Part shown: positions 3,001 through 7,025 of the stretch, piece after piece
Layout: every line of letters starts with the position of its first letter
Position numbering within the stretch: the stretch's first letter is position 1
Assembly: GCA_015272155.1 (NCBI GenBank)
Contig: JACYME010000129.1
Coordinates: 1 to 34,560 of the forward strand
Source: Leptolyngbyaceae cyanobacterium T60_A2020_046
GTDB lineage: Bacteria > Cyanobacteriota > Cyanobacteriia > Phormidesmidales > Phormidesmidaceae
Length of the DNA: 34,560 nucleotides
Reading direction: 5' to 3'
Made by a program: the position numbers and the translations under genes
The notes under the pieces: generated by a model
The model's input: only the letters and a program-made list of their open reading frames with translations
The model's database searches: none
What the model was told of the DNA's origin: nothing

Positions 3001-3816
3001 ATGGCGGATTCCTCAGAACAGCAAACCTCGCGTCCAACCTCGCGTCAATGGCCGCTGCGGTGGGCCGCGGGGGGTGTTGGCGCGATCGCGGTGCTTCTTG
3101 TCGCGGCGATCGTCGTGGTTGTGGGCAATTCCTCCGCACCCGAGCCTGAGCCCCCCGCCGAGCCACCCACCGCAAACACCCCCACCAGCGAAGCCCCCGC
3201 CCCGGCTGCGCTGGCGGATGACTTGCGGGCTCGGCAACAGCAAGTGAGTGCGGTGCTGCAAGACTTGGATCGGGAGGTACTGATTGGCGGTTCTCCTACC
3301 CGCGGCAACCCCGACGCTTCAGTGGTGTTGATGGAATTTTCGGACTTTCAATGCTCGTTTTGTGCGCGGGCGGTGCCAGAGGTGAAATCCTTTGTAGACG
3401 GCAATGAAGCCGATGTGCTGTTCGTCTACAAGCACCTGCCACTAATGCAAATTCACCCCGAAGCAGTGCCCGCTGCCCTAGCCTCTTGGGCGGCGCAACA
3501 GCAGGGCGAGTTTTGGGCCTACCACGATGCGCTATTTGCCAACCAAGATCGCCTGGGTGAGGATCTCTACGTCGAACTAGCAGACACCTTGGGGCTTGAT
3601 GTGGAGCAGTTCAACCGCGATCGCGCTAGCACCGACGCCCAAGCCGCGATCGCCCGTGACCTCGCCCTCGCCGCCGAACTCCAGCTCAATAGCACCCCCA
3701 CCTTTTTGATAGGAGATTTGCTGATCCCCGGTGCAGTGCCCGCCGACTTTTTTGCCGAAGCCCTAGCCCGATTGCAGGCGTTTCAGCAACGCGACAGCAC
3801 CGAAACCGGAGAATAG
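3001..3816 (+). CDS. Membrane-anchored DsbA-like thioredoxin-fold oxidoreductase
   Basis: Probable periplasmic or lumenal thiol-disulfide oxidoreductase. The 271-residue protein has a short basic cytoplasmic tail, one transmembrane anchor at about residues 21-42 (sequence around GAIAVLLVAAIVVVV), a Pro/Ala/Glu-rich linker (about 47-75) and a DsbA-type domain (about 95-262). The redox motif is CSFC in FSDFQCSFCAR. The cis-proline loop is STPTFLIG near residue 230. The insertion between these two motifs is helical, as expected of the DsbA (Thioredoxin_4) group. ATG at 3001 is supported by a GGAG 11 bases upstream. Its natural substrates cannot be told from the sequence. It is flanked by unrelated genes, so no operon partner is evident. 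Confidence 0.9.
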   Translation: MADSSEQQTSRPTSRQWPLRWAAGGVGAIAVLLVAAIVVVVGNSSAPEPEPPAEPPTANTPTSEAPAPAALADDLRARQQQVSAVLQDLDREVLIGGSPTRGNPDASVVLMEFSDFQCSFCARAVPEVKSFVDGNEADVLFVYKHLPLMQIHPEAVPAALASWAAQQQGEFWAYHDALFANQDRLGEDLYVELADTLGLDVEQFNRDRASTDAQAAIARDLALAAELQLNSTPTFLIGDLLIPGAVPADFFAEALARLQAFQQRDSTETGE

Positions 3817-4179
3817 CCCCACGCGGATAACGGATATCGACCAAAATCAGCGGGGGCAGATGACCGATGCATGATCATCGGCACTGGCTTGCTGAAGCAG
3901 GGCAATTTCTGGAAGTCTTGATGTTCAAGGATCTCAGGCAACGGAAAATCAAGGCTCCAACTTTAAGAGACCAGTGCCTCATCATCAATCATGTCGCTAT
4001 AGTGCCCAACTCAAATCACCCCACAAAGCCTTGACTTTGCAAGTCGTTCAATCCAGACATCAACTGAAGTTAGGCACACAAAAACTTTTCGCTTCTGAGT
4101 TTCATGCTTCAATCCTGGCCCTACAAAGGCAATTGATCACCCTCACTTTAAGGCGTTTGGTTTAGATGAGAAGATTGGC
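3817..4179. other. Gene-free stretch
   Basis: No open frame here has convincing protein content on either strand. A 63-codon plus-strand frame (3974-4165) lacks a ribosome binding site and any recognisable motif. The base composition falls noticeably from about 3890 onward, marking the start of the lower-GC patch that runs to about 4900. Confidence 0.5.
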
Positions 4180-4542
4180 TCACCAGTCATAGATTCCTGG
4201 GATACCAGGGCAATCAAAATCAACCCACATGCTACTTTGATCGCTCGGTGGGATACGGACTAAGTCTTCAGCATTTCTTTGTTTGCCAGAAGCATTTGGC
4301 CCAGTTTCTTTGGCTGGAAGAATCTCTTGAACAGATCGGCATTGCTCCCATATTTGCTTGTCTATCCCTGGAGGGGGGTGAGATTCATCGATTACCTGAG
4401 TCGAGGTGAGTGGCGTTTGAGTCGGAGCTGGCGCTTGGGCAGGCGTCGGTACCTGGGTAGGTGTAACCGATGATCCAGAACTTAAGTGAAGAACTACAGC
4501 GTTTCCTTGCTTGGTGAGGTGCGCTTCATCCCCGGATGTCAA
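4180..4542 (-). CDS. Hypothetical Pro/Thr-rich protein
   Basis: A 120-residue frame starting at TTG 4542. The middle is a low-complexity Pro/Thr/Ala linker (residues about 25-60: SSVTPTQVPTPAQAPAP and on). The C-terminal half is mixed charge with two cysteines (EQCRSV and DFDCPG) and ends GIYDW. I do not recognise a family. There is no signal peptide. It follows, in the same frame but after three stop codons in 13 codons, the broken two-helix membrane gene at 4576-4784. A Pro/Thr linker after two membrane helices would be a sensible design, so this may be the soluble part of a formerly longer protein or a separate small gene. Its base composition is lower in GC than its neighbours, which suggests transfer. 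Coding status is uncertain. Confidence 0.45.
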   Translation of the reverse strand: MTSGDEAHLTKQGNAVVLHLSSGSSVTPTQVPTPAQAPAPTQTPLTSTQVIDESHPPPGIDKQIWEQCRSVQEILPAKETGPNASGKQRNAEDLVRIPPSDQSSMWVDFDCPGIPGIYDW

Positions 4543-4575
4543 TGGTTACGTGGCTGTTTTTGCACCTCACTGGCT

Positions 4576-4784
4576 TCAAAAACGCTGTAAACCAATACAA
4601 AGAATAAATAGCCCAACCGGGATGGCCAACTTTTTTTGCTCTGGTGATACTTCTATTGTCCCGCCAATTTTTGTGACGAATCCCAAAACGAGAATAAACA
4701 GCGCTACAGCTATCAGAAGCTATCAGAAGCTATCAGAACAGTAGGGACTGGCGTGTCTTGTATTGCCTGCAAAAAGTCTCCCAT
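4576..4784 (-). pseudogene. Two-helix small membrane protein gene disrupted by a 10-bp repeat expansion
   Basis: ATG at 4784 opens a frame MGDFLQAIQDTPVPTVLIA that stops after 23 codons because the unit TCTGATAGCT (minus strand) is present three times at 4737-4708. With a single copy the frame continues directly into VALFILVLGFVTKIGG, then IEVSPEQKKLAIPVGLF and LQRF, stopping at 4576. That would be a 62-residue protein with two membrane helices and a short GG-containing loop. The reconstructed layout (short amphipathic start, TP.PT motif, helix, KIGG-type loop, helix) resembles a small membrane module common in cyanobacteria, often found alone or at the N-terminus of larger proteins. I know no function for it. 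Only the one-copy state is productive: two copies shift the frame, three or more reach TGA. Confidence 0.75.
4708..4737. repeat. 10-bp perfect tandem repeat, three copies
   Basis: AGCTATCAGA occurs three times without interruption (4708-4717, 4718-4727, 4728-4737). It lies in the first membrane helix of the reconstructed 62-residue protein and is the cause of its frameshift. Confidence 0.95.
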
Positions 4785-5011
4785 CGCCGCACCAGTTTGC
4801 CTTTATCAACTCAAAAGTTTTATCTTATGCAACTATTTCCAGGTCGTTATGACATCAAAATAGTTAGTTGGCAGCACGTTTAGCCATCTAAAAAATCCGA
4901 TCAATTGCGCGCACCACTCGCGATCGCAACGTTGGCTGAAAAACTGTGCGCCACCCTACTGCTTGGGCGATCGCAGTTTCGTTAGCCTACAGAGGCAGCG
5001 CAACATCGGCC
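4785..5011. other. Intergenic region between divergent broken genes
   Basis: Contains no gene I can support. It is AT-rich up to about 4900 and carries HIP1-type sites near 4920 and 4967, where the ordinary GC-rich composition resumes. Promoters for the minus-strand membrane gene and for the plus-strand urate hydroxylase remnant would be expected here, but none is clear. Confidence 0.4.
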
Positions 5012-5412
5012 ATGAACGATCTGAAAGTCATCATCGTGGGGGCGGGCATCGGCGGCCTCACCACAGACATCGCCCTGACCAAGCGGGCTACACCGTCACC
5101 CTCTACGAGCGCGTCACCGACCTGTGGCCCGTAAGAGCCGGAATTTCGCTGTGGTCAAACGGCGTCAAGGTGCTGAACTTCCTGGGCCTAGGCGACAAAA
5201 TTGCCCAAATCGGCGGCCAGATGAACCAGATGCAGTACCTCAGCAAAAAGGGAGAACTGCTGAACGACATCGACCTGCTGCCGCTGATCCACACCGTCGG
5301 ACAGCGGCCCTATCCCGTGGCGCGGGCCGACTTGCAGGGCATGTTGCGCGATGGGTTTCCGGGAGAAATTCACCTGGGCTGCAAGTGCGTTGCGGTTGAC
5401 AAGGAAGACGGA
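5012..5412 (+). pseudogene. hpxO: Remnant of FAD-dependent urate hydroxylase (HpxO-like)
   Basis: In the intact family this flavoprotein oxidises urate to 5-hydroxyisourate. ATG at 5012 begins [16 protein letters not shown], the GxGxxG dinucleotide-binding fold of FAD monooxygenases. After IALTKR the frame is lost: a G run at 5085-5087 appears one base short, and the next frame continues [10 protein letters not shown], then [13 protein letters not shown], and later [14 protein letters not shown], all typical of HpxO. About 133 codons remain of a family length near 385. The substrate-domain half and the second FAD motif (GD) are gone. The frame runs directly into the ATG of the 5-hydroxyisourate hydrolase at 5413, so a deletion removed the rest. 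The neighbour catalyses the next step of urate breakdown, which supports the HpxO reading over other FAD monooxygenases. Confidence 0.75.
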
Positions 5413-5769
5413 ATGACGGGAAAACTTACCACCCCCGTCCTCGATACGGCCCGGGGCTGCCCCGCCGCAGACCTCGTGATTGACCTCTGGCGGATAGAGG
5501 CGACGGGCGATCGCGTGTTGCTCAAAACCGTGCGCACCAATGCCGATGGCCGCACCGACGCCCCCCTCCTCGCCGAGGATACCTTTCTCCCCGGCGGCTA
5601 TGAACTGGTCTTTCACTTGGGCGACTATCTCCAGCGCCACATCCCCGACCTGCCGAGCCCGCCATTCCTCGATCAGGTACCAATTCGCGTCAATTTGGGC
5701 GATCGCGGCCATTACCACGTCCCGCTGCTGGCCTCACCCTGGTCATACAGCACCTATCGCGGCAGCTAG
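5413..5769 (+). pseudogene. 5-hydroxyisourate hydrolase (transthyretin-like), probably inactive
   Basis: The family hydrolyses 5-hydroxyisourate to OHCU, the step after urate oxidation. The 118-residue reading [15 protein letters not shown] ... [19 protein letters not shown] is full length and ends with the diagnostic YRGS tetrapeptide. The arginine of NADGRTDAP and the histidine of HYHVPLL are present. In the N-terminal motif the family has LTTHVLD with a catalytic histidine; here the codon is CCC and gives LTTPVLD, a single-base change (CAC to CCC) that should abolish catalysis. The gene is joined in frame to the truncated urate hydroxylase before it, with no spacer. I call it a pseudogene because of the lost catalytic residue and broken neighbours, although the frame itself is intact and could be expressed. 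Confidence 0.8.
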
Positions 5770-5888
5770 CCCAGCCCAACCGCGATCGCCCCATGCCATC
5801 CCCATCATCCTTCAAAAAATTTTGAACTTTGAATTCCACTCCCATCTCTCCGCTTTCGTCCTGCCCCGTTTCCTAGAGAGAACTTGCC

Positions 5889-6887
5889 ATGATCGTGACA
5901 CAACACACTGTCTTCAAACGGTTTTGGTATCCGGTGATGCCCCTGGCCCACCTGAGCGATGGCCCTCAGGGGTTCACGCTCTTAGGTCAACCGCTAGTGC
6001 AGTGCTCTCGCTAGATGAGGACGGGGCTCCGGCAGCGGTGCGCGATCGCTGCTGCCATCGCACCGCTCAACTCTCCCTCGGGCAAGTCAAAAAAGGGCGC
6101 ATCGCCTGCCCCTACCACGGCTGGGAGTTTGGCGGCGGCGGAGCCTGTGTGCGCGTGCCCCAACTGCCCGAGGGCGATCCCATCCCCGCTAACTACCGCG
6201 TTGAAAGCTATGCCTGCAAAGCCCAGTATGGCTATGCCTGGGTCTGCCTAGGGGACGCGATCGCCGATATTCCCCCCATCCCCGAAGTCCTCAGCGACGA
6301 CTATCGCATCATCCCCGAGTTCTACGAAACCTGGCGCTGCGCGGGCCTGCGCGTCATGGAAAACGAAATGGATTTGGCCCATCCCACCTTTGTCCACACC
6401 ACCACCTTTGGCAGCGAAGATCATCCCGTCCCTGACGCCCTCGACATCACCGAAACGGAAACGGGCCTGCACGTCTATGGCTTGCTCGGCGTCGTCAACC
6501 CCGAACTCCAGCAAAAGAATTTGAAGATGGAGTCAGCCCAGACCATGCGCACCCTGGCCATGGAGTGGTTTATACCCTTTACCGTCAAACTGAAGATCAC
6601 CTATCCCAATGGGTTAGAGCACATCATCGTCAACACCATGACGCCCATTGACGATCGCACGTCCCAAATGGTGCAGTTCTGTGTTCGCAATGACACCGAG
6701 GCCGACACCCCCAGCGCTGAAGTCATCGCCTTCGATCGCCAGGTCACCCTCGAAGATAAGCGCATCCTAAGAATCGACGGACTACGATGTGCCGCTTACC
6801 CTCAACGACGAACAGCACATGCTGACAGACAAGCCGGGGATCATGGTGCGCAAAAAGATTGCGGCGCTGTTGAAGGCGCATGGCTAG
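5889..6887 (+). pseudogene. Rieske [2Fe-2S] aromatic-ring-hydroxylating-type oxygenase, two frameshifts
   Basis: ATG at 5889 begins MIVTQHTVFKRFWYPVMPL and reads to GQPLV, where a 5-bp tandem duplication (AGTGC, 5996-6005) shifts the frame into a stop. Without it the frame continues LSLDEDGAPAAVRDRCCHRT. The Rieske ligands are CCH in RDRCCHR and CPYHGWEF. The mononuclear iron site has the usual N..D..H....H pattern in ENEMDLAHPTFVH. A second shift, an extra A near 6769 (CTAAGAATC for CTAGAATC), loses the frame; the corrected end reads TDYDVPLTLNDEQHML and on to LLKAHG, stop at 6887. The corrected product would be about 330 residues. The family oxidises small organic substrates with a partner reductase; the substrate is unknown. 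It follows the urate remnants in the same direction. Confidence 0.85.
5996..6005. repeat. 5-bp tandem duplication inside the Rieske gene
   Basis: AGTGC at 5996-6000 is repeated at 6001-6005. Removing one copy joins GQPLV to LSLDEDG in frame, giving the usual Rieske N-terminal sequence. Confidence 0.9.
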
Positions 6888-7025
6888 GGTGGGTCAACAG
6901 CGCATCCTAGAAGGTAAGAGTTCTTAAGGTGGTTTTAGGGTAGGCGCTGTATCTTTGAAGGGGATTCGCGTTAGCGACGGAATGCTGACGCACGGTTGTG
7001 TGATGTTTTTGGGTAGTCTTCACCG

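Follow-up and report, generated by a model that had tools for sequence, protein, structure and literature searches.

Two lesions, a 10-bp tandem triplication and a 93-bp MITE, very probably make a pseudogene of a cyanobacterial membrane-anchor gene

Tandem repeats of short units underlie slipped-strand phase variation in Neisseria (PMC5084427). Among mobile elements, Nezha is a cyanobacterial MITE of the TA-duplicating IS630/Tc1/mariner type (cited in PMC10969869). Duplication of a TA dinucleotide marks transposition of the Tc1/mariner (IS630) kind, and the TA rule has been demonstrated for ISY100 (PMC2170065). The palindromic elements of Rickettsia (PMC10969869) provide a further point of comparison.

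The locus considered here lies in a window of 34,560 nucleotides, which is the whole stretch of DNA that was analysed and which belongs to a draft assembly of 250 contigs. As in slipped-strand loci of the Neisseria type, a coding region contains tandem units of a length not divisible by three. Unlike in those loci, there are just three units, relatives lack the array, and the protein cannot be regained at any repeat number because a second lesion is present. This second lesion is an element that resembles the TA-duplicating MITEs derived from IS630/Tc1/mariner in being short and free of a transposase, in having terminal inverted repeats with TA on both sides, in existing as many near-identical copies and in being able to inactivate genes. 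It differs from the known examples in that no transposase-bearing element with the same ends was found, and its likeness to Nezha is one of general description. With the Rickettsia palindromic elements it shares a length of 31 codons, the occurrence, in one orientation, of frames free of stops, and one in-frame copy in an enzyme gene, whereas the copy in the window has the other orientation and brings stops; here also the likeness is one of form. We found no description of the 93-bp element in open-access papers.

The first-pass annotation of this region had reported a 10-bp repeat whose expansion would switch off a small membrane protein. Three exact tandem copies of AGCTATCAGA are indeed present, starting at 4708, 4718 and 4728 on the plus strand, and Tandem Repeats Finder gives 3.1 copies with a 100% match for the array at 4708-4738. 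This is the sole exact array with at least three copies in the window (periods 4 to 30), and none of 40 random windows matched in dinucleotide composition gave an exact array of at least three copies at a period of at least 6. The 10-bp repeat is therefore real in the assembly and not a product of chance. The 20-mer formed by two units of AGCTATCAGA has no second site in the 4.2-Mb genome. On the minus strand the unit reads TCTGATAGCT, and the array begins after 16 codons from an ATG at 4784; these codons (MGDFLQAIQDTPVPTV; 4737-4784, minus strand) align with the start of the orthologue described below.

The frame arithmetic that accompanied the original proposal can be reproduced in full. From ATG 4784 on the minus strand, a single unit (obtained by removing two copies, or 20 bp) gives a frame of 62 amino acids that ends at 4576, two units shift translation into a different, third frame of 82 amino acids, and three to eight units lead to a TGA after codon 23. 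When 0 to 8 units were tested, the frame ended at 16, 62, 82 or 23 amino acids, compared with 159 in the orthologue, and none of these readings is a complete protein.

The orthologue was found by a DNA search of relatives combined with a protein search. The closest match (locus L006) is in genome G029, the MAG casp40-mb.232, which belongs to another genus. It is an intact ORF of 159 amino acids that begins MGDFLQAIQNTPIPTILIVVGLFILVLGFVTKIGG and lacks both the repeat and the 93-bp element. Its protein continues for about 100 residues beyond position 62 (VLYLHSGSPSG..., then a Pro/Thr-rich linker, and finally ...IYDW), and residues 59-159 match window positions 4183-4497 on the minus strand with 57% identity (E 1.7e-29). 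This match shares its frame with the middle piece of the coding region (4590-4707, minus strand), which encodes the remainder of helix 1, the loop and the start of helix 2, and an extra 93 bp lies between the two. The ORF at 4180-4542 (minus strand) is the remainder of the gene in that same frame; its gene-derived part, at 4180-4494, encodes the end of helix 2, the linker and the C-terminal domain up to ...IYDW. With the two surplus units and the element left out, the window reads as one open frame of 163 amino acids to the stop of the orthologue, with no third lesion and with 67% identity to the 159-residue protein. By this lesion-free reading, the whole broken gene extends over 4180-4784 on the minus strand (original stop TGA at 4180-4182) and encodes a two-helix membrane anchor, a Pro/Thr-rich linker and a C-terminal domain. 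Searches of the same genome with this gene matched just the pieces at 4180-4784 and gave no other copy. There is no synteny with the contig of the orthologue beyond the gene itself, and the region upstream of the ATG is without similarity.

Of 159 codons compared between the window gene and its orthologue, 44 differ at the first position, 26 at the second and 95 at the third, a distribution that shows selection on this frame until recently. Codon-position counts were used for this comparison because synonymous change is close to or past saturation across the whole gene (YN00, NG86). The first 65 or so residues, in which two helices flank a conserved GG.IEV...Q.K loop, are common to other genera, with 32-67% overall identity. 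The part behind the linker varies, being an SH3_3 domain in G004, an unnamed domain in genomes of genus g12, and a third type of domain shared by the window gene and G029. Given this conserved two-helix part and the differing C-terminal parts, the former appears to be a membrane anchor held in common by proteins with different outer domains. Neither Pfam nor NCBIfam has a model that matches the gene above cut-off, the 62-residue reading gave sub-threshold Pfam matches alone, and Rfam returned a single chance match, far under cut-off, over 3700-5800.

In a DNA alignment with the orthologue, the array at 4708-4738 (minus strand) corresponds to a 20-bp gap. The orthologue is repeat-free and has one unit-equivalent, and no array is present at the corresponding place in the DNA of any of eight homologous loci read from relatives. 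As the relatives show one unit-equivalent, the array is best read as a local 10-bp triplication that constitutes the first lesion. Slippage is the usual route to short tandem triplications and is probably its origin.

Comparison with relatives upholds part of the earlier interpretation and overturns the rest. The frame restored at one copy matches the orthologue and can be taken as the real ancestral frame; a search with the reconstructed protein, which had been proposed as a check, yields homologues, and those read are in the unexpanded state. Relatives carrying the same three copies, which had been named as a finding that would speak against the proposal, were not encountered among those read. 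The parts that fail concern the product. The 62-residue reading had been credited with two full membrane helices, but windows of 19 residues with a mean hydropathy of at least 1.6 occur only in residues 7-40. In the orthologue, helix 2 spans residues 45-68; in the 62-residue reading it breaks off after roughly codon 59, and the 1.6 level is not attained by any 19-residue window in that part. Nor is the stop at 4576 the end of the gene: removal of the extra repeats alone gives MGDF...CIGL-QRF-stop, in which the last three residues are derived from the inserted 93-bp element, as is the stop; the element contains another two in-frame stops. Contraction to one copy, held to be the productive state, would consequently leave a truncated protein.

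The second lesion was recognized from further copies in the same genome and from the empty site in the orthologue. It has a 91-bp core at 4497-4587, with TA at 4495-4496 and at 4588-4589, and represents a net insertion of 93 bp. Positions 4495-4589 read TA-CAGCGTTT...AAACGCTG-TA, the ends being inverted repeats. The element, whose ends can be written TACAGCGTTT...AAACGCTGTA, is short, is without a transposase gene and folds end to end with about -37 kcal/mol. Twelve copies with 94-100% identity were read in the same genome, on different contigs, and eight of the 12 have TA flanks on both sides; copies in other genera of the family have 71-78% identity and the same 91-bp core. When the flanks in the window are joined at one TA they give GGTTTAGTTCTT, and the orthologue has GGACTAGTTCTC, which identifies the two loci as the filled site and the matching empty TA site. 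The window copy is identical to the copy on contig C197 over 89 aligned bases, and this identity points to a recent insertion. We classify the element as a TA-target MITE, presumably moved by a transposase of the Tc1/mariner (IS630) type. Among the DDE_3 loci examined in the same genome and in five relatives (draft assemblies), there was no IS630-type partner with both ends matching.

Several other elements bear some resemblance to this MITE. The IS copies of one relative (L078-L086) carry a single TACAGCGTTT about 80 bp upstream of the DDE domain, and with no partner end this was taken as a chance occurrence. An IS630-type element with perfect ends TAGTACAGCGTAAATT is present on contig C38 of genome G024 (L061, 1325-2554); its TACAGCGT resembles the first 8 bases of the MITE, and the remainder differs. 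The MITE itself (TACAGC[AG]TTT) has numerous copies in several of the family's genera (G008, G010, G024, G017, G032 and others); almost all of them share the 91-bp core and have a conserved inner stem, GGTGAGGT.../...ACCTCAC.

With two disabling lesions relative to an intact orthologue, and no intact copy elsewhere in the genome, we consider it very likely that the locus is a recent, doubly hit pseudogene of a single-copy gene for a membrane-anchored protein of approximately 163 residues. Directly behind codon 16, a 10-bp segment has become three tandem copies, probably through slippage during replication, which added 20 bp and shifted the frame. Independently, a 93-bp TA-duplicating MITE inserted into the part that encodes helix 2, and its orientation and frame are such that stops are introduced. 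No functional product is expected to be made. Because the MITE also cuts the gene, a shortened array cannot by itself turn the protein on. It is highly improbable, then, that slippage in the array turns a 62-residue two-helix membrane protein on at one unit and off at two or more, even though the copies are exact, their length is out of frame, and with a single unit the ancestral frame is regained as far as the MITE. The product of such a switch would be a truncation that takes its last residues and stop from the MITE, with helix 2 cut and about 100 residues of conserved position gone; moreover, three 10-bp units make a short array, and the relatives were read without one. A switch would be possible only if MITE-free alleles circulate, which we regard as scarcely credible, and we attach an equally minute probability to a population in which alleles vary in repeat number and MITE presence, such that full-length protein is still produced in some cells and the sequenced genome represents an off state.

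Two other explanations accept that the gene is damaged. The extra 20 bp could be an assembly or sequencing artefact, so that the MITE alone breaks the gene, and both the draft state of the assembly and the frameshifts in the neighbouring genes at 4963-6910 are in its favour. An exact 20-bp triplication would nevertheless be an unusual short-read error, and the 31-bp array is shorter than the read length, which makes an artefact very unlikely. Alternatively, some function might survive in the separate pieces, for instance if the C-terminal piece were produced as a separate protein from a TTG inside the MITE. The ORF at 4180-4542 does have this TTG start, and its frame carries no further lesion; however, the piece would lack the membrane anchor and could begin only at that codon, and the N-terminal product at three units is 23 amino acids long and contains no complete helix. 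The chance that the pieces function separately is accordingly slight in the extreme.

Genes broken by MITEs and by small duplications are common, and a doubly hit pseudogene carries little weight in itself. A plausible case for phase variation built on the sequence alone falls apart when the orthologue is considered, since what had been predicted as the protein's end belongs to a mobile element. The 93-bp element itself has some modest interest, as it adds 31 codons, is distributed over several genera and has one in-frame copy in an enzyme gene. Read in one orientation, nearly all copies of the same genome are open in two frames. The in-frame copy (G000:C106:4741-4831; L026, 1501-1591), which has this orientation, is located within a dienelactone hydrolase gene. 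In the homologues from G025 (70-71% identity) and G003 (64-68%), the parts that match residues 8-85 and 117 onward are adjacent, so that residues 85-116 or thereabouts are the insert, a stretch of about 31 residues absent from the homologues. Another copy, 1 bp shorter (G000:C247:30500-30589; L032, 1501-1590), lies at the 3′ terminus of a GGDEF/EAL-like gene, whose stop codon it provides.

Genes adjacent to the pseudogene candidate also appear to be damaged. At 4963-5769 (plus strand), the start of the FAD-dependent urate hydroxylase HpxO runs straight into a complete hydroxyisourate hydrolase; the HpxO piece matches profile positions 20-131 of 381, and its first codons are in another frame. 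An internal deletion seems to have fused these two uric-acid genes. The Rieske oxygenase ORF at 5540-6910 (plus strand) reads as if it carried frameshifts, as its first 110 and last 45 residues, approximately, look out of frame. Taken with the broken gene, the apparent HpxO fusion and Rieske oxygenase frameshifts make the region from 4180 to 6910 look like a decaying stretch.
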